From assembly GCA_030697615.1 (NCBI GenBank), contig JAUYPK010000090.1, positions 1-11,393 of the forward strand: a stretch of DNA of 11,393 nucleotides, given 5' to 3'. Below are positions 1,907 to 11,380 of the stretch, piece by piece (position 1 is the first letter of the stretch; each line of letters starts with the position of its first letter). The stretch is from Microcaldota archaeon (GTDB lineage Archaea; Micrarchaeota; Micrarchaeia; Norongarragalinales; UBA8480). A program made the translations under genes and the position numbers. Under the pieces are notes generated by a model. The model saw nothing but the letters and a program-made list of their open reading frames with translations. It searched no databases and was not told the origin of the DNA.

Positions 1907-3517
1907 CTAGGCTGGAGAAACAAACTTTTTCACACCAACTACTTTGAACCTCGGCATTGCAAGTGTCCGTATCTCAAGCCCTTTTCCGCCAAGTTCAGGC
2001 AAACTCGAAACTGCAAGTTCTTCAAATGTAAGTTTAGCTTTATTTTTCTCACTAGCTGGAAGCGAATTGCCGCGAGATGACATGAGGCTAATTGCACGTT
2101 TTAACGCGTTTACTTGCAGTGGGGAATGTGGGTTAACAAAATGTGCGGTTACTGCTTCTTGGCCAGTTTCGCCAATTGCCAGTTTAGTTGGAAGCTTAAC
2201 AACTAATCCACTCCATTGCTCTATTTTTGCACGTTCAATAGCGGTGTCAAGCTCTTGTTCATACCCACGGGTAAAAATACTATGTTGAGAGGCAGAGTTT
2301 CTAGGTACAAAAACCGTATTTTCAGGTTCTAATTTTAGAATATTTAAAACTCTACCGTTAACTGTTTTATCAGCGGCTACTACATAGTCGCTCTTGTCCA
2401 AAACTTTTACCCCTTTAGATTTTAGATAAGCGTCGGTTTCGTCACTTAGTGGAAATCTACCATATCTTATGAGTAAATCTGGAGAGGTGCTTTTGTTAGT
2501 TAAAAAGTCCTGTACTTTTAAACCAGTGAAAGGAAAACCCCGTGCTTCGCCGCTGCGAACTCCTTTAACGCGGCTTTCAACTGATTGTTGTAAAACTACA
2601 TTAACCGCTGCGTCTGGGTTTGACTGTCTTAGAATTCGTTCAACATTATCCCGAAGCGCGCCTATGTCCCTCTTGAACGTCTCTGCCAACTGTTTGTCGC
2701 GAACCATTATAGCAACTGTTTTAGGCAATGTTCCACTTTCCTCTTTGTGGATGTTTAGAAAAGCATGCGCTAAACTCTTAGCAAGACCAGAAGGCAACTT
2801 GTAAGTCTTTAGCACTTCATCAGTGAACCCAGCTCCAAGAAGTTCAGAGCTAACATCTATAACCGCTGCACGTGTTCTTCCACTTTTTCCCCGCACTAAC
2901 TTATAGTCCACTTTCATCAACGCTTTTCTGTTTTGCGGCTCAAAAACGCCTTCTTCGGCTACTTTTGCAGCTAACTCTCTAAACTCGTCAACTTTAGCAG
3001 TAGGATAACGCCTTCGGGTTTCATCAATTGCCCCTACAACCGCACGTGTGACTTTTCCAGTAGTAGCGCTTATTGGATCAAACAAATCATTGCCAACCTG
3101 TACAAAAACCTCAGCTTGCGGTAAATCAGAAACCGGCCTAAAACGCTTTGGCTTTGAAACAACCTTTAATCCTTCTTTGCCTCCGCGAACCCACGCAGTC
3201 CATTTCATTGTTGAACTACCTGCAGTTCTGAAAGCTGCACTGTTCAACATTGGAACCAACTCGTGGCTGTCGTGGTCTGAAATTGAATTTCCACCGTTAG
3301 CTAAATGAATTGCGTCTTGGAGTTTTTGCCTCACAATCGGCGATACCGCCCTGTCTTGTGCAATTTCAGAAAGCGCACTAGAATGCGCACTAATAGCCGC
3401 GGATAATTCAGGTGAATTCCTAGCGTGCCAAATTCCGTTTTTTCCAAACATAGCTTCAGCTGACAACAACTGGATTTTTCCAAATCCCCTTGGCAAAGTA
3501 CGGTATTCCATAGCCAT
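1907..3517 (-). CDS. Unknown 536-residue protein, possible ATP-grasp-like C-terminal region
   Basis: I do not recognise this protein with confidence. It has no obvious signal peptide or membrane segment and looks soluble. Residues 346-405 resemble the linker into an ATP-grasp domain: DLLIRYGR (347-354), a 'KSKGVKVLDKSDYVVAADK' stretch (366-384), then VLNIL and PENTVFVP (398-405). This is close to the 'D-(h)-h-h-R-G ... G-V-x-V-h-(N/D) ... x-A-x-D-K ... L ... P-x-T' pattern of RimK-like ligases. WSGLVVKLPTK (435-445) could be the ATP-binding lysine strand, and EIRTL (515-519) the closing metal-binding strand. Glycine-rich loops are weak, so the fold is divergent or the match is chance. Residues 1-340 match nothing I know. 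It is the last gene of a three-gene operon, 7 bases after the M20 gene. GGGGGAT overlapping the M20 stop region serves as RBS and favours the ATG at 3517 over the in-frame ATG at 3511. Confidence 0.8.
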   Translation of the reverse strand: MAMEYRTLPRGFGKIQLLSAEAMFGKNGIWHARNSPELSAAISAHSSALSEIAQDRAVSPIVRQKLQDAIHLANGGNSISDHDSHELVPMLNSAAFRTAGSSTMKWTAWVRGGKEGLKVVSKPKRFRPVSDLPQAEVFVQVGNDLFDPISATTGKVTRAVVGAIDETRRRYPTAKVDEFRELAAKVAEEGVFEPQNRKALMKVDYKLVRGKSGRTRAAVIDVSSELLGAGFTDEVLKTYKLPSGLAKSLAHAFLNIHKEESGTLPKTVAIMVRDKQLAETFKRDIGALRDNVERILRQSNPDAAVNVVLQQSVESRVKGVRSGEARGFPFTGLKVQDFLTNKSTSPDLLIRYGRFPLSDETDAYLKSKGVKVLDKSDYVVAADKTVNGRVLNILKLEPENTVFVPRNSASQHSIFTRGYEQELDTAIERAKIEQWSGLVVKLPTKLAIGETGQEAVTAHFVNPHSPLQVNALKRAISLMSSRGNSLPASEKNKAKLTFEELAVSSLPELGGKGLEIRTLAMPRFKVVGVKKFVSPA

Positions 3518-5838: not shown

Positions 5839-6357
5839 TCATTTTATCAAAAGGCTATGAGCAAATTTTGCTTCTTTAAGTTTTTTCATCGTACGGCTGG
5901 GAAGTTTGCCATCTATGATTACAGTCAAAACTGGATCTGGAAACAATTCAGGGTCATCGGACATAATTTGACGAATAACAATCCCATCATCTGCAATTAT
6001 TTTACTCACAGCTGCCACTATACCTTTTTTCTTTGGATCTGCCCGTAGTTCAATAGTGTCAAAACCTAATTCTTTGGCAGCGTTGCCCATAAACGCACGA
6101 GGTTCAAGCCGATAGAAAATTTGAAGCAGCTTATTGTCACGAGCTATTGCCTGGCCAGTTGCGATTACAACCCTGCGGTCAATCGAAAGCGCGCGGGCAA
6201 TTTTAGCAGGCGGAACTTCAATATTACCAAAAAATATTTTTCCACGGCTATCTACCCTAAGGCCAAGGCGCAATAGTTCAATCGCCACCGTTTTTCTCCC
6301 ATGTGCGTTTTCAAAAAATTCTTCAAGCAATTTAAGCATATGTATACTTTTAGTCAT
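5839..6357 (-). CDS. COG2150-type amino-acid metabolism regulator (winged helix + ACT)
   Basis: Predicted archaeal regulator with an N-terminal DNA-binding domain and a C-terminal ACT domain, the fold that binds amino acids in feedback-controlled enzymes and regulators. In the first 75 residues, VPPAKIARALSIDRRVV (about 48-64) reads as a helix-turn-helix. From about residue 95 the pattern FDTIELRADPKKKGIVAAVS, then VIRQIMSDDP and PVLTVIIDGKLP, fits the beta-alpha-beta-beta-alpha-beta ACT fold. It is divergent to the tal-aro-trp operon, so it is a natural candidate for its control, probably with an aromatic amino acid as ligand; this is inferred from position. The longest frame is given. The in-frame ATG at 6339 (residue 7) is the better start, because the only good TATA element (6370-6363) lies at -31 to -24 from it and only 5 bases upstream of the ATG at 6357. 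No RBS is seen at either, which suggests a leaderless mRNA. Confidence 0.85.
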   Translation of the reverse strand: MTKSIHMLKLLEEFFENAHGRKTVAIELLRLGLRVDSRGKIFFGNIEVPPAKIARALSIDRRVVIATGQAIARDNKLLQIFYRLEPRAFMGNAAKELGFDTIELRADPKKKGIVAAVSKIIADDGIVIRQIMSDDPELFPDPVLTVIIDGKLPSRTMKKLKEAKFAHSLLIK

Positions 6358-6362
6358 AAAAG

Positions 6363-6370
6363 CTTAAATA
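6363..6370. promoter_or_regulatory. Shared TATA element of the divergent regulator/aromatic operon
   Basis: CTTAAATA reads as a TATA box on the plus strand, preceded by an A/G-rich ATAAAAG that fits a BRE. Transcription would start near 6391-6395, just ahead of the RBS of the leader ORF. Read on the minus strand as TATTTAAG it is correctly spaced for a leaderless start of the regulator at 6339. A single element used in both directions would tie the two transcripts together by competition. Confidence 0.5.
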
Positions 6371-6409
6371 TGTGCATCAAGGTAAATTACTAAAAGAGGT
6401 GTTGAAATA

Positions 6410-6487
6410 ATGAAAAAAACAAGTGGCGGTTTACTTTGGCAACTCACAGCTAAACCAATTTCAGCACTGCGCATCGATTCTAATTAA
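6410..6487 (+). CDS. 25-codon leader ORF with a single Trp codon
   Basis: This small ORF begins MKKTSGGLLWQLTAKP and stops at TAA 6485-6487, 30 bases before the transaldolase gene. AGAGGTG (6395-6401) sits 8 bases before its ATG, a better RBS than that of the gene downstream. The TATA element at 6363-6370 would start transcription just ahead of it. It is therefore likely to be translated. The product resembles no protein family I know. Its place at the head of an aromatic/tryptophan operon and the TGG codon at 6437-6439 suggest a leader peptide. Only one Trp codon is present, where classic bacterial trp leaders have two or more in tandem. Alternatives are a chance ORF or a functional small protein. 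Confidence 0.55.
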   Translation: MKKTSGGLLWQLTAKPISALRIDSN

Positions 6488-6517
6488 TACACGTAGCAAC
6501 GGAGTTGTTAGCTAAAC
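6428..6517 (+). promoter_or_regulatory. Candidate translational attenuator of the tal-aro-trp operon
   Basis: Segment TGGCAACTC (6437-6445), which includes the leader Trp codon, can pair over 9 positions (two G-U) with GAGTTGTTA (6502-6510), covering most of the transaldolase RBS GGAG (6501-6504). GGTTTA (6428-6433) can pair with TAAACC (6451-6456), which puts the Trp codon in the hairpin loop. TAGCAAC (6494-6500) offers a competing local 7-bp stem with GTTGTTA (6504-6510). Direct repeats link the two halves: T(G/A)GCAAC at 6437 and 6494, and AGCTAAAC at 6448 and 6510. A ribosome paused at the Trp codon would cover the anti-RBS segment. No U-tract follows, so control would be on translation. 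Confidence 0.4.
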
Positions 6518-7213
6518 ATGGAACTTTTTCTCGATACTGCAAAGGTTGAAGAAATAAAAGCTGGACTTGAAACCGGATGCATTGATGGCGTAACAACTAA
6601 TCCTACCTTAATCAGCGAGTGTGGAAAAAAATTTGAAGCCACCATAATGGAAATAGCTGAACTTGTCAAGGAGAGTAACGTTAAATGGATCGTTAATGCA
6701 GAGGTAACGCAAGTAGAATCATCGACTGCAATGATAACGCAGGGAATTTACCTATCAAAACTACACCAGAATATAGTGGTTAAACTGCCTGCGACAATAG
6801 AGGGGATAACTGCTGCGAGTTGCCTTGCAAGGAAAAATATAAGGACTAACGTAACGCTTTGTTTTTCAGTTAACCAAGCGCTCTTAGCTGCAAAAAGTGG
6901 GGCGAGTTACGTTTCTCCTTTTGTCGGAAGATTAGATGACATTGGAGAAAATGGAACTGAGCTAATTAAGCAGATTAGAATCGCATACAATAACTACAAG
7001 ATAAACACGAAAATACTAGCAGCTAGCATACGTTCGCCGTTCCATGTATCGGCAATGGCATTAATAGGTGCAGATGTGGCAACCATTCCATTTAGCATAT
7101 TTGAAAAAATGTTCAAGCATCCGCTTACAGATAATGGAATGATGCGTTTCAAAAGCGACTGGGAAACGTTTACAGCGCGTAGTGAAATAAAACAGGTGAA
7201 TTTTACAAGATGA
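6518..7213 (+). CDS. tal: Transaldolase / fructose-6-phosphate aldolase family protein
   Basis: Cytosolic class I aldolase of the short TalC/MipB/FSA group (231 residues; the family is about 215-225). It moves a dihydroxyacetone unit between sugar phosphates, and transaldolase activity yields erythrose 4-phosphate. Motifs: LDTAKVEEI with D6, TTNP (26-29), Schiff-base lysine K89 in IVVKLPAT, NVT (111-113), YVSPFVGRLDD (131-141), AASIR (168-172), and PLTDNG near the end. A few terminal residues exceed the family norm. The RBS is GGAG at 6501-6504, rather far (13 bases) from the ATG but matched exactly in spacing by trpB. The stop overlaps the DAHP synthase start as ATGA. Its place before DAHP synthase suggests that it provides the erythrose 4-phosphate that enzyme needs. 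Transaldolase versus FSA activity cannot be decided from the sequence. Confidence 0.92.
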   Translation: MELFLDTAKVEEIKAGLETGCIDGVTTNPTLISECGKKFEATIMEIAELVKESNVKWIVNAEVTQVESSTAMITQGIYLSKLHQNIVVKLPATIEGITAASCLARKNIRTNVTLCFSVNQALLAAKSGASYVSPFVGRLDDIGENGTELIKQIRIAYNNYKINTKILAASIRSPFHVSAMALIGADVATIPFSIFEKMFKHPLTDNGMMRFKSDWETFTARSEIKQVNFTR

Positions 7214-8022
7214 AAAATAAACTAACTGCAAAACAGCATGCAACACATAATACAATAGTTACCGTTGGCAAAATCAAAATTGGTGGATTAACGCCCACAA
7301 TAATAGCTGGTCCGTGTAGTGTCGAAAGCGAAGAACAGCTGCTTAAAACCGCAGTTGGAGTTGCAGAAGCAGGCGCGCATTTACTGCGAGGAGGCGCGTT
7401 TAAGCCAAGGACTTCACCATATTCATTTCAGGGACTTGGTGAAGACGGGCTAAAACTACTTGTTAAAGCACGTGAAAAAACTGGACTGACTATTGTTACT
7501 GAAATAGTTTCAGAAAAATACATTCCGCTATTTGAAAAATATGAAGTGGACGTTTATCAAGTTGGCGCTAGAAACTGCCAAAATTATGACCTGTTAAAGG
7601 CGTTGGGCAAAGTGAAAAAACCAGTGTTACTAAAGCGAGGTATGGGCACAAAGCTTGAAGAATTTCTACTCTCTGCAGAATACCTAGTGCACCACGGTAA
7701 CCCAAACGTCATTATGTGCGAACGTGGCATAACTACTTTTGAAAATTACACGCGTAATACACTTGACTTGAATACAGTTGCAGCGCTAAAGCAATTAACG
7801 CACTTGCCAATAATAGTTGACCCTAGTCACGGGACTGGAATTCGCTCGCTTGTTACGCCATTAGCAAGGGCAAGCATAGCTGCAGGTGCAGATGGACTGA
7901 TAATAGAAGTTCATCAAAAGCCAGAAGAGGCGCTTTGTGATGGCCAGCAATCACTAAACCTAGCTGAATTTAGTGAATTAGTTGATCAAGTCAATAAAAT
8001 ATCACACGCAGTTAAGAAGTGA
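7210..8022 (+). CDS. aroF: 3-deoxy-7-phosphoheptulonate (DAHP) synthase, type I-beta
   Basis: Condenses phosphoenolpyruvate with erythrose 4-phosphate, the first step of the shikimate pathway. The protein is a bare catalytic TIM barrel of 270 residues, without an N-terminal ferredoxin-like or C-terminal chorismate-mutase extension, so allosteric feedback is not expected. Metal ligands are C36 ([10 protein letters not shown]), H207 (DPSHGTG), E233 (IIEVHQKP) and D244 (LCDGQQSL). [17 protein letters not shown] (61-77) and LLKRGMGT (140-147) carry the phosphate-binding residues. The start overlaps the transaldolase stop by four bases, with AGGTGA at 7194-7199 as RBS. Many archaea bypass this enzyme with the aldol-based AroA'/AroB' route, so the gene and its coupling to transaldolase indicate the classical erythrose-4-phosphate route here. 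The close relative KDO-8-phosphate synthase is excluded by KPRTSP, GTG and operon context. Confidence 0.95.
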
Positions 8023-8076: not shown

Positions 8077-8874
8077 ATGCTACAATTACATCAAAAAATA
8101 GCGCGGTTGCTTGAATTGAAAAAAACCGAGCTACAACAAAAGAAACAAACCACAGTAGTAAAGAGTTTACTTGACGCAGCAACTGCAATGAAAATGCCAC
8201 CTAGTTTTTCCAGTGCAATAAAACAAGCTAATAAAATAACACTCATATGCGAATACAAACGTAGCTCGCCAAGCGAAGGAGAAATCAATGGTGCGCGCTT
8301 GGAGGAAGTTATTTCCAAGTACGAAAAAGGAGGCGCAGATGCAGTTTCTATACTAACTGAACCTAACTACTTTTCCGGCACCATAGTTGATTTGAAAAAG
8401 GCAAGCGAGTTAACGTCACTGCCTTTGCTTAGAAAAGACTTTGTAATTGAAGAATACGAAATTATCGAAGCAAGAGCCAACGGTGCAAGCGCAGTTTTGC
8501 TAATCGCGGAAATAACTCCCAATATGCAAAGGATGATTAGTGTCTGCAAAGATTTGCAAATGGATGCGCTAGTGGAATGCTTTACTGAAGAAAACATAAC
8601 CTTGGCAGTAGATTCTGGCGCGAGCATAATCGGGGTAAACAATCGTAGTTTTGTTGATTTAAGTGTAGATAAAAATCGCGCTTTGGCATTAAAGCAATTT
8701 ATTCCAAAGAATTGCATAAGCATTGCAGAAAGTGGAGTTAAGAATTCAACTGGAGTGCAAATGTACAAAAAAGCTGGGTTTGACTCAATTTTAATTGGAA
8801 CAAGCTTAATGAAAGCAGCTGTGCCAGAAAAACTATTGGCAGAATTAGTACAAGCTGCAGGTGCAAAAATCTAA
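8077..8874 (+). CDS. trpC: Indole-3-glycerol phosphate synthase
   Basis: Closes the ring of carboxyphenylamino-deoxyribulose phosphate to give indole-3-glycerol phosphate, the substrate of TrpA. It is a single-domain (beta-alpha)8 barrel of 265 residues, not fused to TrpF. Active-site residues are visible: E59 and K61 in CEYKRSSPSEG, K120 in LLRKDF, E168 in LVECFTEE, N189 in GVNNRSF, E218 and S219 in IAESGV, and the phosphate loop LIGTSLMK (239-246). The N-terminal helix, MLQLHQKIARLLELKK, is the usual substrate-gating extension. The gene follows DAHP synthase after 54 bases and abuts the kinase-like gene with no gap (TAAATG). The RBS is weak (AAGTGA), so translation may depend on coupling or on an A-rich leader. 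Confidence 0.96.
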   Translation: MLQLHQKIARLLELKKTELQQKKQTTVVKSLLDAATAMKMPPSFSSAIKQANKITLICEYKRSSPSEGEINGARLEEVISKYEKGGADAVSILTEPNYFSGTIVDLKKASELTSLPLLRKDFVIEEYEIIEARANGASAVLLIAEITPNMQRMISVCKDLQMDALVECFTEENITLAVDSGASIIGVNNRSFVDLSVDKNRALALKQFIPKNCISIAESGVKNSTGVQMYKKAGFDSILIGTSLMKAAVPEKLLAELVQAAGAKI

Positions 8875-9429
8875 ATGGCATATAGAATTAACCCAACTGG
8901 AAAACGTGCATTGCGGCAAATGAGCATCAATGGACAAGACAACGTCACTTACGAGAACTTAAGCCAATATCTAGATGGTGCAATCCGCTTTACTGCAGCA
9001 GAAGGAGAAAATCCCTTATTTAAGTTAAGAACTAGAAAAGGAAAACACATCGCAATTAAGGTTTTTCCAGATCAAAGATATGAAGACGGAATAGAACACT
9101 ACGATGCATTAACCGATTTGCAAAATGCTTTTAGAAAATCAAGGCTAGGACACCGAGTAGTTAGGCCATTATTCGCCACTAAACATGTGCTCGGAATGGA
9201 GTATATTCCAAAGCGAGTAAAACGGTGGGATGAATTTATCAAAAAAGCAGATAAAAGAAAACGCTCAATGGCTCAACGCGAACTGGAAAAAATAGTAACC
9301 GCAGTAAAAACACATGCACCACATTTACTCGCTCGTTTTGATCCACATGAAGAAAATGTATTTGTAGAACAACAGCGAAATAAGATAAAATTAGTAATAA
9401 TAGACGCAGTTAAAGCAAGGAGTTTATAA
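8875..9429 (+). CDS. Small kinase-like protein (RIO/APH/LPS-kinase-like fold), in the trp operon
   Basis: Not a known trp gene. The 184 residues contain, in order, elements of a minimal protein-kinase-like fold: a strand pair ending HIAIKVF with K62 in the place of the ATP-binding lysine, E74 as possible helix-C glutamate, a hinge-like GMEYIP (107-112), a catalytic-loop-like FDPHEENVFV with D156 and N161, and LVIIDAVKA with D177 in the place of the DFG aspartate. The spacing of these parts is right for RIO, Bud32 or aminoglycoside-phosphotransferase-like kinases. The protein ends 7 residues after D177, so the usual C-lobe helices are absent. The canonical HxD histidine is replaced (R154-F155-D156), and no clear glycine loop is seen. 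It is basic overall. TAAATG joins it to trpC, and trpB follows after 6 bases, so all three are probably translated from one mRNA. The target is unknown; the fold call is inference from motif order. Confidence 0.75.
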   Translation: MAYRINPTGKRALRQMSINGQDNVTYENLSQYLDGAIRFTAAEGENPLFKLRTRKGKHIAIKVFPDQRYEDGIEHYDALTDLQNAFRKSRLGHRVVRPLFATKHVLGMEYIPKRVKRWDEFIKKADKRKRSMAQRELEKIVTAVKTHAPHLLARFDPHEENVFVEQQRNKIKLVIIDAVKARSL

Positions 9430-9435
9430 TTAAAC

Positions 9436-10599
9436 ATGAAACGTTACTTTGGCGAATTTGGCGGGATGTTCGTTCCGGAAATGCTAGTGCCAGCTTTGCA
9501 AGAATTGGAAACTGCGTTTGAAAAGTTAAAAACCGACAATAAGTTTGAACACGAACTGCACACGCTATTGCATGACTTTGCAGGTCGGCCAACTCCACTT
9601 TACCACGCTGCAAACTTGTCGAAAAAATATGGATTTAAAATTTACCTTAAACGGGAAGATTTACTCCACACCGGCGCACATAAGATTAACAACTGCCTTG
9701 GCCAAGCGCTGCTTGCTAAGCGTATGGGGAAAAAACGCTTAATTGCAGAAACCGGCGCAGGCCAACATGGAGTTGCAACTGCTGCTGTCGGTGCGTTGCT
9801 TGGCATGCAAACGACGATTTACATGGGTAGAAAAGACGTTGAAAGACAAAAGCAAAATGTGTTCAGGATGAAATTACTTGGGGCAAAGGTAATTCCGGTT
9901 GAAACTGGCTCCCAAACTTTAAAAGACGCAGTTAACGAAGCACTTCGAGACTGGATAACTCGACTTGAAACAACTCATTATCTCCTTGGATCTGCAGTTG
10001 GCCCGCATCCCTTTCCATCAATTGTAGAATATTTTCAAAAAGTTATTGGTGAAGAAGCGAGGCACCAGATTCACCACTTTGAGAGAAAAAAACCAAAAGC
10101 GATTTTGGCCTGCGTAGGTGGAGGAAGCAACGCAATTGGTATGTTCAACGCGTTTATTCCGGATAAAAACGTGCGTTTAATTGGAATTGAAGCCGGCGGT
10201 AGAGGAAAGAACATGGGGCAAAACGCAGCTACGCTATGCCTCGGCACACTGGGAGTACTTCACGGTGCAAAAACTCTTTTACTTCAAGATAAGCACGGCC
10301 AAGTTAGTGACACGCATTCAATTTCAGCTGGACTTGACTACCCTGCTGTTGGGCCTAAATTAGCATTTCTCAAGAGGAGCGGCAGAGTCAAAGTACACGC
10401 AGTTACGGATAAAGAAGCGCTAGACGCATTTATGGAACTTAGCAGGTTAGAAGGGATAATTCCTGCGCTCGAGTCATCGCATGCACTTGCTTATCTCAAA
10501 CACTTAAAGCTGAAAAAAGGCGACTCAGTCATTGTGAACTTATCCGGCCGGGGCGATAAGGATCTCGGCATAGTTATGGAAAATTTAAAGGGAATTTAA
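9436..10599 (+). CDS. trpB: Tryptophan synthase beta chain
   Basis: PLP enzyme joining indole and serine to make tryptophan, in an alpha2-beta2 complex with TrpA. At 387 residues it is of the TrpB1 class, which pairs with TrpA; the longer TrpB2 form is excluded. PLP lysine K83 lies in HTGAHKINN, catalytic E105 in AETGAGQHG, the phosphate cup GGGSNAIG is at 228-235, E346 is in PALESSHA, and the PLP-ring serine S370 is in NLSGRGDKD. The N-terminal [12 protein letters not shown] is a family signature. GGAG at 9419-9422, inside the end of the kinase-like gene, sits 13 bases before ATG. GGAGTT-N7-AAACATG is the same arrangement as at the transaldolase start. trpA follows after one base. Confidence 0.97.
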
Positions 10600-10600
10600 A

Positions 10601-11380
10601 ATGGGGCTTAAAAACATTCAAAATACTTTTGCACAAAAAAAGGGAACTGCATTTATGCCTTTTTTAGTGGCTGGCTATCCTGATTTTGAAACTTCGGTAA
10701 AAATTACAAAAATACTAGTGGAAAACGGCGCAGATGCGCTGGAAGTGGGAATCCCATTTTCCGACCCGCTGGCAGATGGTCCTACAATTCAAGCTGCAGA
10801 TGTAAAAGCAATTGAAAACGGCATGACGCCAGTAAAAGCGTTTAGACTCGTGAAAGAGATTAGAAAGTTCTCCAAGGTTCCAATTGTAATAATGTGCTAC
10901 GCAAATGCAATTACAACTTTTCCAGGCGACTTTTACAAAGAAGCTGCAAAAAACGGAGTTGACGGAGTACTAGTTGCAGATGTGTGCCTTGAAGAAATAA
11001 AACCATTTGCGCAAAAGGCCAAGATCAACGGCTTAGCAAATGTAATGATAATCAGCCCAAACACGTCTCTTAACCGCATCAAGCAAATTGGCAAACAAAG
11101 TAGCGGCTTTCTTTACGTGGTTTCAGTGATGGGCGTAACTGGCGAAAGAAAAGATGCGATGAAAACTGCAATTGCGTTGGCACTAAGGGCGAAAAAAGCA
11201 ACTAGATTGCCAACCTGCATTGGCTTCGGCATATCAACGCCAGCACAAGTGAAACAACTTAGAAGCAACCACGTCGATGGTGCAATTGTTGGAAGTGCGT
11301 TGATTGCAAAGATACGTGATAAAAACTATAAAGCACTTAAAGTACTCGCTAAACAAATGAACATAGAGGCTAAAAAATGA
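10601..11380 (+). CDS. trpA: Tryptophan synthase alpha chain
   Basis: Cleaves indole-3-glycerol phosphate to indole and glyceraldehyde 3-phosphate, passing indole to TrpB through the interchain tunnel. Catalytic E48 and D59 are present in ALEVGIPFSDPLADGP. The flexible loop 2 and 6 regions are seen as PIVIMCYANAI and FLYVVSVMGVTG, and the phosphate-binding end as GFGIST and GAIVGSAL. VLVADVCLEE has Cys where Pro is common, a mild difference. At 259 residues it is full length. AAAGGGA upstream acts as RBS. The TGA stop shares bases with an ATG at 11377 (ATGA), which indicates another coupled gene downstream. Confidence 0.97.
   Translation: MGLKNIQNTFAQKKGTAFMPFLVAGYPDFETSVKITKILVENGADALEVGIPFSDPLADGPTIQAADVKAIENGMTPVKAFRLVKEIRKFSKVPIVIMCYANAITTFPGDFYKEAAKNGVDGVLVADVCLEEIKPFAQKAKINGLANVMIISPNTSLNRIKQIGKQSSGFLYVVSVMGVTGERKDAMKTAIALALRAKKATRLPTCIGFGISTPAQVKQLRSNHVDGAIVGSALIAKIRDKNYKALKVLAKQMNIEAKK

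Follow-up and report, generated by a model that had tools for sequence, protein, structure and literature searches.

How does a short open reading frame (ORF) that carries a Trp codon and lies directly ahead of a tryptophan operon act upon that operon in an archaeon? The question is raised by a stretch of 11,393 nucleotides from a Microcaldota archaeon (hereafter, at its full length, the window). For this leader, an earlier note had proposed that a ribosome stalled at the Trp codon masks a segment complementary to the ribosome-binding site (RBS) of the next gene, a transaldolase, and in this manner frees that site. Comparison with relatives points to a different finding that is larger than the one first stated: a family of putative Trp-codon +1 frameshift cassettes that stand before tryptophan genes of Micrarchaeota, which is well supported as to the identity of the cassette in the sequences.

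The tryptophan operon and its TrpY-like neighbor

The right half of the window carries an operon of tryptophan and precursor synthesis, running to near the contig end (11393).

6518..7213, plus strand: tal, transaldolase / fructose-6-phosphate aldolase family (PF00923, E 3e-54; TIGR00875, E 2e-72, slightly below the cut-off)
7210..8022, plus strand: DAHP synthase (PF00793; TIGR01361), its start overlapping the tal stop (ATGA)
8077..8874, plus strand: trpC, indole-3-glycerol phosphate synthase (PF00218, E 5e-63)
8875..9429, plus strand: unnamed 184-aa ORF between trpC and trpB, kinase-like by eye only
9436..10599, plus strand: trpB (PF00291; TIGR00263)
10601..11380, plus strand: trpA (PF00290, E 3e-77)
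5839..6339, minus strand: trpY-like regulator gene, divergent from the operon, 166 aa counted from codon 7 (Met) of the longest ORF (5839-6357)
6341..6356, unstranded: operator-like box TGTATACTTTTAGTCA, with 12/16 matches to the TGTATATTTTTGTACA-type boxes near the TATA in relatives

The trpY-like gene matches the NCBIfam model NF053754 (TrpY_fam) with an E value of 4e-43 and 147 bits, below the curated cut-off of 180; its listed homologues are mostly 166 aa long, several of the named ones are ACT-domain proteins of Micrarchaeota, and an 89% match to it is encoded on a metagenome contig. A TrpY-family gene divergent from trp genes is the arrangement of a TrpY-regulated divergent operon, and trpY-like genes adjoin trp genes in relatives as well, with TrpY homologues present across the class in 57 of 295 genomes. 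The operator-like box was judged by eye and without statistics, and TrpY may bind there. The 184-aa ORF has no match in Pfam or NCBIfam; a distant relative (27% identity, E 1e-8) also lies between trpC and trpB in genome G016 (L081:7383-7979). Elsewhere in the window, a 536-aa ORF on the minus strand (1907-3517) has no Pfam match at E 0.001.

Between the regulator gene and tal lies the leader, with the following signals read from the sequence.

6364..6371, plus strand: TATA-like box TTAAATAT
6396..6401, plus strand: Shine-Dalgarno (SD) sequence GAGGTG of the leader ORF; AGAGGTG likewise stands before a trpB2 gene of a genome of the same order (G012, below)
6410..6487, plus strand: frame-0 leader ORF MKKTSGGLLWQLTAKPISALRIDSN, 25 codons, stop TAA at 6485-6487

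All of these elements, which the earlier note had described together with the Trp codon TGG at 6437-6439, were confirmed: the 25-codon ORF beginning at ATG 6410, its SD and the TATA-like box. The position of the TATA-like box suggests a transcript start near 6393. The assembly of 843 kb contains the pattern GAGGTG..ATG 18 times and a control pattern 26 times, and since ORFs of at least 70 aa begin at 11 of the 18 sites, the SD of the leader is of a kind that the organism uses. The chance of at least one Trp in 24 codons is P = 0.11. An inverted repeat of 10 nt with 90% complementarity (6399-6408 / 6458-6467) would cover part of the leader SD when the leader is untranslated. There are no terminator-like sites at 6200-6700, and an Rfam search of the window at the gathering threshold gave no match.

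Direct relatives of this arrangement are scarce. Transaldolase is absent from all six other genomes of the family and present in 24 of the 60 genomes of the set, the organism's own included, and among the seven genomes of the family only its own encodes DAHP synthase. None of the transaldolase loci in the genome contigs searched exceeds 54% identity to that of the window; the best other transaldolase protein, at 67% identity, is encoded on a 2.5-kb contig. Before transaldolases elsewhere we saw no leader ORF resembling that of the window, and no close relative of the leader itself was found in the genomes searched.

RNA pairing in the leader

The mechanism of the earlier note rests on base pairing between the Trp-codon segment and the tal RBS. 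A complement does exist, and it spans ten positions (6436-6445/6502-6511), three of them G-U pairs, rather than the nine first described; its length is near chance, with runs of at least ten pairs with the RBS in 9.4% and of at least nine in 24% of 10,000 dinucleotide-shuffled leaders. The hairpin said to display the Trp codon in its loop retains six pairs (6428-6433/6451-6456), beyond which a mismatch and then a G-U pair follow. The competing local stem (6494-6500/6504-6510) is present with one G-U pair, and the direct repeat AGCTAAAC is present and exact at 6448-6455 and 6510-6517. The second copy of the repeat abuts the tal ATG and contains the +1 stop described below; the repeat may mark a small duplication.

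Folding the segment 6393-6530, which the earlier note had named as a check, gave a stability not above that of shuffled sequences (z +0.76; 152 of 200 shuffles at least as stable). The probability of the helix between the Trp-codon segment and the RBS was 0-0.2 in three folds of the full leader, and rose to ~0.7-0.86 only when the RNA was cut at 6411. Nor does stalling release the RBS in the folding model: with a ribosome footprint masked at codon 10, the accessibility of the tal GGAG (6501-6504), free versus stalled, was 0.59 versus 0.60, 0.70 versus 0.70 and 0.23 versus 0.23 for three 3' ends. The behavior expected of an erm-type translational attenuator, in which the RBS is sequestered and stalling frees it, was hence not what the folding model returned for the window. 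As an RNA device, the elements of the leader are unremarkable.

A model in which the stalled ribosome hides the anti-RBS segment and frees the tal RBS, with no frameshift, can draw on the leader ORF, its Trp codon, the ten-position complement and the dominance of the helix in an RNA that begins at 6411. We regard it as very unlikely, given a pairing that is near chance and rare in full leaders and a stall that is without effect in the folding model; it moreover leaves unexplained why trpE and trpB2 of relatives lie in the +1 frame after CTT-TGG. What survives of the earlier proposal is its broader part, that translational control of an aromatic operon is exerted through a leader Trp codon, which is consistent with the lack of terminator-like sites; the proposed mechanism is not supported. 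A Trp codon in a translated leader probably controls a trp/aromatic operon at the level of translation, in an archaeon and without a terminator.

A shared layout before trpE and trpB2 in relatives

In several of 30 regions divergent from TrpY genes, that of the window included, a AAGGGRTNTNCTTTGG-like stretch lies just within the first gene, with an SD-led ATG upstream in one frame and the gene itself in the next. Homology surveys of trpE and trpB2, which were made without the motif as a criterion, revealed a common layout in genomes of the same class (Micrarchaeota), for the most part next to trpY. Seven trpE genes and three trpB2 genes share it: a mini-ORF of 6-10 codons leads up to a site resembling GGAAGGGRT-NNN-CTT-TGG, past which the tryptophan gene is read in the +1 frame. 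The junction codon is UGG in all ten of these genes; for six of them none of the codons ATG, GTG and TTG is available at the gene start in its own frame, and a TrpY gene lies on the same contig for nine, the exception being G155.

The trpE survey found the gene in 35 of 301 genomes, and 33 loci were examined. Seven carry the cassette (G108, G101, G155, G169, G024, G014 and G027), with a frame-0 ATG and CTT-TGG or CGT-TGG; trpE itself lies in +1, without an SD-led start in its own frame. G024, G014 and G027, which belong to the same order as the window, lack any ATG, GTG or TTG codon from the preceding in-frame stop to the conserved trpE N-terminus; own-frame starts without a recognized SD are an ATG in G108, G101 and G169 and only a GTG in G155. 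The frame-0 ATG of G014 has no recognizable SD, and this site was picked up solely by a scan requiring Trp. The trpE frame of G027 is broken again after 271 codons, and this second break may be an error. Among the other loci, an ordinary SD-led own-frame start was scored at 15 of the 33 by the script's criterion (among them G272, where the motif is kept), an own-frame ATG without a recognized SD at four, and copies that are truncated, or longer and different, at six. At the remaining locus, in G017, whose genus also includes G014 and G024, trpE is continuous in frame and reads SGFLG; judged by eye, this is the product expected from a +1 shift after Leu in G014 and G024. At this locus (L206 / L085, G017:C14) the site, GGG TTC CTG GGC, is one base shorter by eye, and trpE would there be independent of a shift.

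The trpB2 survey found the gene in 36 of 301 genomes and examined 32 of 37 places, leaving out G070, G089, G059, G215 and G199. An own-frame start is present at 28 of the 32 loci, one is truncated, and three have none: G012 (of the window's order), G043 and G079. In each of these three a frame-0 ORF of the form SD-ATG-...-TGG precedes trpB2 in the +1 frame. The motif is retained in G069 and G272, where it goes with an SD-led in-frame ATG. Sites of this kind are found repeatedly in genomes from several families, and we therefore consider assembly errors an unlikely cause of the frameshifts. At the level of sequence, the surveys establish the cassette, its frames and the missing own-frame starts in these relatives.

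The nucleotide conservation of AAGGGRTNTNCTTTGG near TrpY genes would also be explained if the shared motif were a protein-binding element in DNA or RNA, a TrpY site for example, in which case the frames would be incidental. In the ten trpE and trpB2 cases, though, ATG, TGG and the +1 gene stand in a constant frame relation, and six of the ten genes are without a start codon in their own frame; this explanation is extremely unlikely.

Form and rarity of the proposed shift site

Eighteen sites, the window included, were aligned without gaps; for the seven sites before other genes (below) TGG is present by construction. The consensus is GGAAGGGRT NNN CTT TGG, with the hexamer AGGGRT at -12 to -7, a G at -9 in all 18 sites, a T at -7 in 16 and a C after TGG in 12. 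This internal SD-like AGGGRT, or a close variant, is found in most of the 18 sites; those from the order to which the window belongs have degenerate forms of it. TGG is preceded by CTT in ten sites, GTT in four, CGT in two and TTT and CGG in one each, so that NTT occupies 15 of the 18; the 17 sites besides the window have CTT 9, GTT 4, CGT 2, TTT 1 and CGG 1. CGT or CGG replaces NTT in G169, the trpB2 cassette of G079 and G168.

In a junction-codon scan, TGG came top of the 61 sense codons in a tie with AAA (18 each of 410, with no SD-led own-frame start), a count that is inflated for TGG because the scan took in some loci fetched by TTTGG patterns; GGA, TTC, AGG and CTT follow close behind, and codons belonging to the cassettes themselves may account for some of these. 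Fourteen of the 22 TGG matches are cassettes already counted. In a class-wide pattern search, ATG-TGG distances that keep the frame were not in excess (29 versus 35 and 34), and RAGGRRTNTNNTTTGG barely exceeds its control (21 versus 18 in 60 genomes); cassettes make up 8 of those 21. With no general excess in the pattern searches, the cassette is therefore rare and local.

Several candidates were set aside along the way. The pattern matches L244, L219, L231, L217 and L224 were inspected and none was accepted as a cassette; for G015 (MCMPKGLLW, same order) and G116 (MEGFLW), inspection showed short +1 frames of 52 and 33 codons, and neither was kept; and a generic scan for SD-led ORFs that overlap out-of-frame ORFs was discarded as too noisy.

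Cassettes before other genes

Cassettes before genes outside tryptophan synthesis were found through the motif or the junction-codon scan. In G066 three successive genes encode cassette proteins of 59 aa, 181 aa and 624 aa, the last a radical-SAM plus methyltransferase-33 protein. Each of these three genes (L167:3283-6010, G066:C47) has a cassette of its own, and the 624-aa fusion, which resembles histidine-specific methyltransferases, has no Trp. Further cassette genes encode proteins of 245 aa (G079) and 117 aa (G061), a response-regulator-like protein (G077) and, behind a looser cassette (CGG-TGG, no AGGG), a 248-aa protein in G168. Two TrpY-adjacent loci, L177 and L096 (G168 and G143), share CCGGTGGCAAGA before unnamed proteins of ~250 aa whose kinship was judged by eye; both have the looser CGG-TGG variant, in which frame 0 holds the Trp codon and the protein is read in +1.

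The seven proteins outside tryptophan synthesis contain no Trp in 1656 aa; in 103 background ORFs taken from these loci its share is 0.59%, and 37 of the 103 are likewise without any Trp. Trp depletion was rejected as evidence for the trpE and trpB2 cassettes because ordinary copies of these proteins are equally poor in Trp.

The probable cassette in the window

Fifteen bases, GGCGGTTTACTTTGG, are identical in the leader of the window and the trpE cassette of G027, and the SD and ATGAAA of the window resemble those of the trpB2 cassette of G012, both genomes being of the same order. The pattern GGTG-ATG-GG..T..NTTTGG has a single match in the organism's own assembly, which is the site in the window; a single-motif scan of the two loci of the Trp/Tyr-tRNA synthetase family in that assembly found no cassette. 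The parts of the leader that correspond to the cassette, together with the SD of tal, are as follows.

6425..6430, plus strand: GGCGGT, in the register of the cassettes' internal SD-like AGGGRT and degenerate here (from the 18-site alignment)
6434..6439, plus strand: proposed +1 shift site CTT TGG, P-site Leu CUU and A-site Trp UGG (from the 18-site alignment)
6438..6515, plus strand: +1-frame continuation GNSQLNQFQHCASILINTRSNGVVS, 25 codons, stop TAA at 6513-6515
6501..6504, plus strand: GGAG, SD of tal, 13 nt upstream of the gene and inside the +1 frame

On the strength of this match, the leader is very probably a divergent member of the cassette family. The +1 frame of the window is not a gene, just a 25-codon tail, and its stop at 6513-6515, a position that the sequence itself fixes, lies 2 nt before the tal ATG; a slipped ribosome would therefore reach the start of tal. 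An equally close stop arose in 4.6% of 20,000 shuffles (P 0.046). The SD of tal itself is weak and distant. With the +1 stop near the tal ATG and the tal GGAG inside the +1 frame, we read the leader as a frameshift-and-coupling switch.

Two further explanations bear on this reading. Since the +1 frame is a mere tail with a placement of P 0.046, decay or coincidence is possible, and the main rival is a decayed cassette, that is, the remnant of an ancestral trpE-type cassette whose first gene was replaced by tal and DAHP synthase, with tal initiating by itself and TrpY exerting transcriptional control alone. No chorismate-binding domain, and hence no trpE, was found in the 72%-complete assembly of the organism, and the TrpY neighbor, the +1 frame that is no gene and the degenerate internal SD-like segment all fit decay. 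We nonetheless consider it unlikely, as the SD, ATG, frame and CTT-TGG are all intact, the +1 stop is 2 nt from the tal ATG, and tal would have to rely on a weak SD 13 nt away. Alternatively, the leader may be an ordinary short upstream ORF that helps tal through termination and reinitiation without sensing anything, as its good SD and a stop 30 nt before tal would allow; the match of the leader to trpE and trpB2 cassettes of the same order makes this highly unlikely.

Proposed mechanism

Taken together, we propose that the leader of the window is a tryptophan-sensing +1 frameshift cassette, the reading that on balance we find probable. The ribosome would initiate at ATG 6410 and arrive at CUU-UGG. 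With plentiful Trp-tRNA, UGG would be read and translation would terminate at UAA 6485-6487, 30 nt before tal. When Trp-tRNA is scarce, the peptidyl-tRNA-Leu would slip +1, from CUU to UUU; the slipped ribosome would then translate the +1 frame across the tal SD and stop at UAA 6513-6515, and reinitiation at the tal ATG would lead to expression of tal, DAHP synthase, trpC, the 184-aa ORF, trpB and trpA. In relatives, the +1 frame of the cassette would lead straight into trpE or trpB2.

Slippage, its dependence on tryptophan and the expression of tal by coupling are the three steps that we infer. Trp-responsive +1 shifting is, in our assessment, the likely working principle, and for coupling to tal in the window we lean slightly in favor. 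In Micrarchaeota at large, it is rather probable that charged tRNA-Trp at CUU-UGG decides whether there is any expression of trpE, trpB2 and a few further genes, and that the same switch operates in the window.

Comparison with known systems

Amino-acid operons sensed via leader ORFs are a textbook theme in bacteria, where an attenuator of the trpL type has tandem Trp codons in its leader. As in bacterial trpL attenuation, the regulatory codon of the leader ORF is cognate to the amino acid of the operon, a pattern stated in general terms in PMC1183508. The window differs in having a single in-frame Trp codon and no terminator-like site (6200-6700); both the terminator hairpin with its U-tract and the tandem Trp codons of trpL are absent. 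The controls of archaeal trp genes described in the available parts of PMC6737238, TrpY and TK0271, are transcriptional, and the TrpY-controlled trp operon of Methanothermobacter is presented there as a case of repression with no frameshift described.

A 2016 review (PMC5009743) states that hungry-codon frameshifting yielding starvation-specific trans-frame proteins has no known examples. For Archaea, only one case of -1 frameshifting has been described according to PMC8211752, the main text of which does not contain the word tryptophan, and tryptophan shortage has been linked to ribosomal frameshifting in cancer cells (PMC11425274). In the open-licence literature, represented mostly by titles and the beginnings of abstracts, we found no report of a Trp-codon +1 frameshift switch for tryptophan genes. 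If the proposal holds, the cassettes would be a case in which nature employs starvation frameshifting for the production of starvation proteins, an archaeal counterpart of attenuation and another coupling of aminoacyl-tRNA supply to gene expression, and they would account for the missing start codons of trpE and trpB2 in some Micrarchaeota genomes.

Precedents for the shift itself come from elsewhere. Ty1 slips +1 at CUU-AGG-C. The likeness is that a P-site CUU shifts +1 at a slow sense codon in the A site, as outlined in PMC5009743. Ty1 is, in contrast to the cassettes, a yeast retrotransposon unrelated to amino-acid biosynthesis.

The closest geometry is that of the bacterial RF2 (prfB) site, which we take to read AGGGGG-UAU-CUU-UGA. 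For RF2, PMC5009743 describes a short 0-frame ORF, a slow A-site codon as the sensor and a product in +1, with a stimulatory SD 3 nt from the shift site and an anticodon that moves from CUU to UUU. The cassettes share this geometry, with an SD-like segment 3 nt 5' of the site (degenerate in the window) and CUU, and have UGG where RF2 has UGA; in the window the P-site CTT is likewise able to re-pair on UUU. With UGG in the A site and trp genes in place of UGA and an encoded RF2, the cassette may therefore work like RF2 without being a member of that class, and it differs further in its tryptophan genes, its archaeal ribosome and, in the window, a +1 frame that ends at the start of the next gene. 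For this last property we liken the window to the ermC leader, where, according to PMC5009743, a telithromycin-induced frameshift moves ribosomes on into the spacer, so that the next gene can be initiated; in the window, a hungry codon would be the signal instead.
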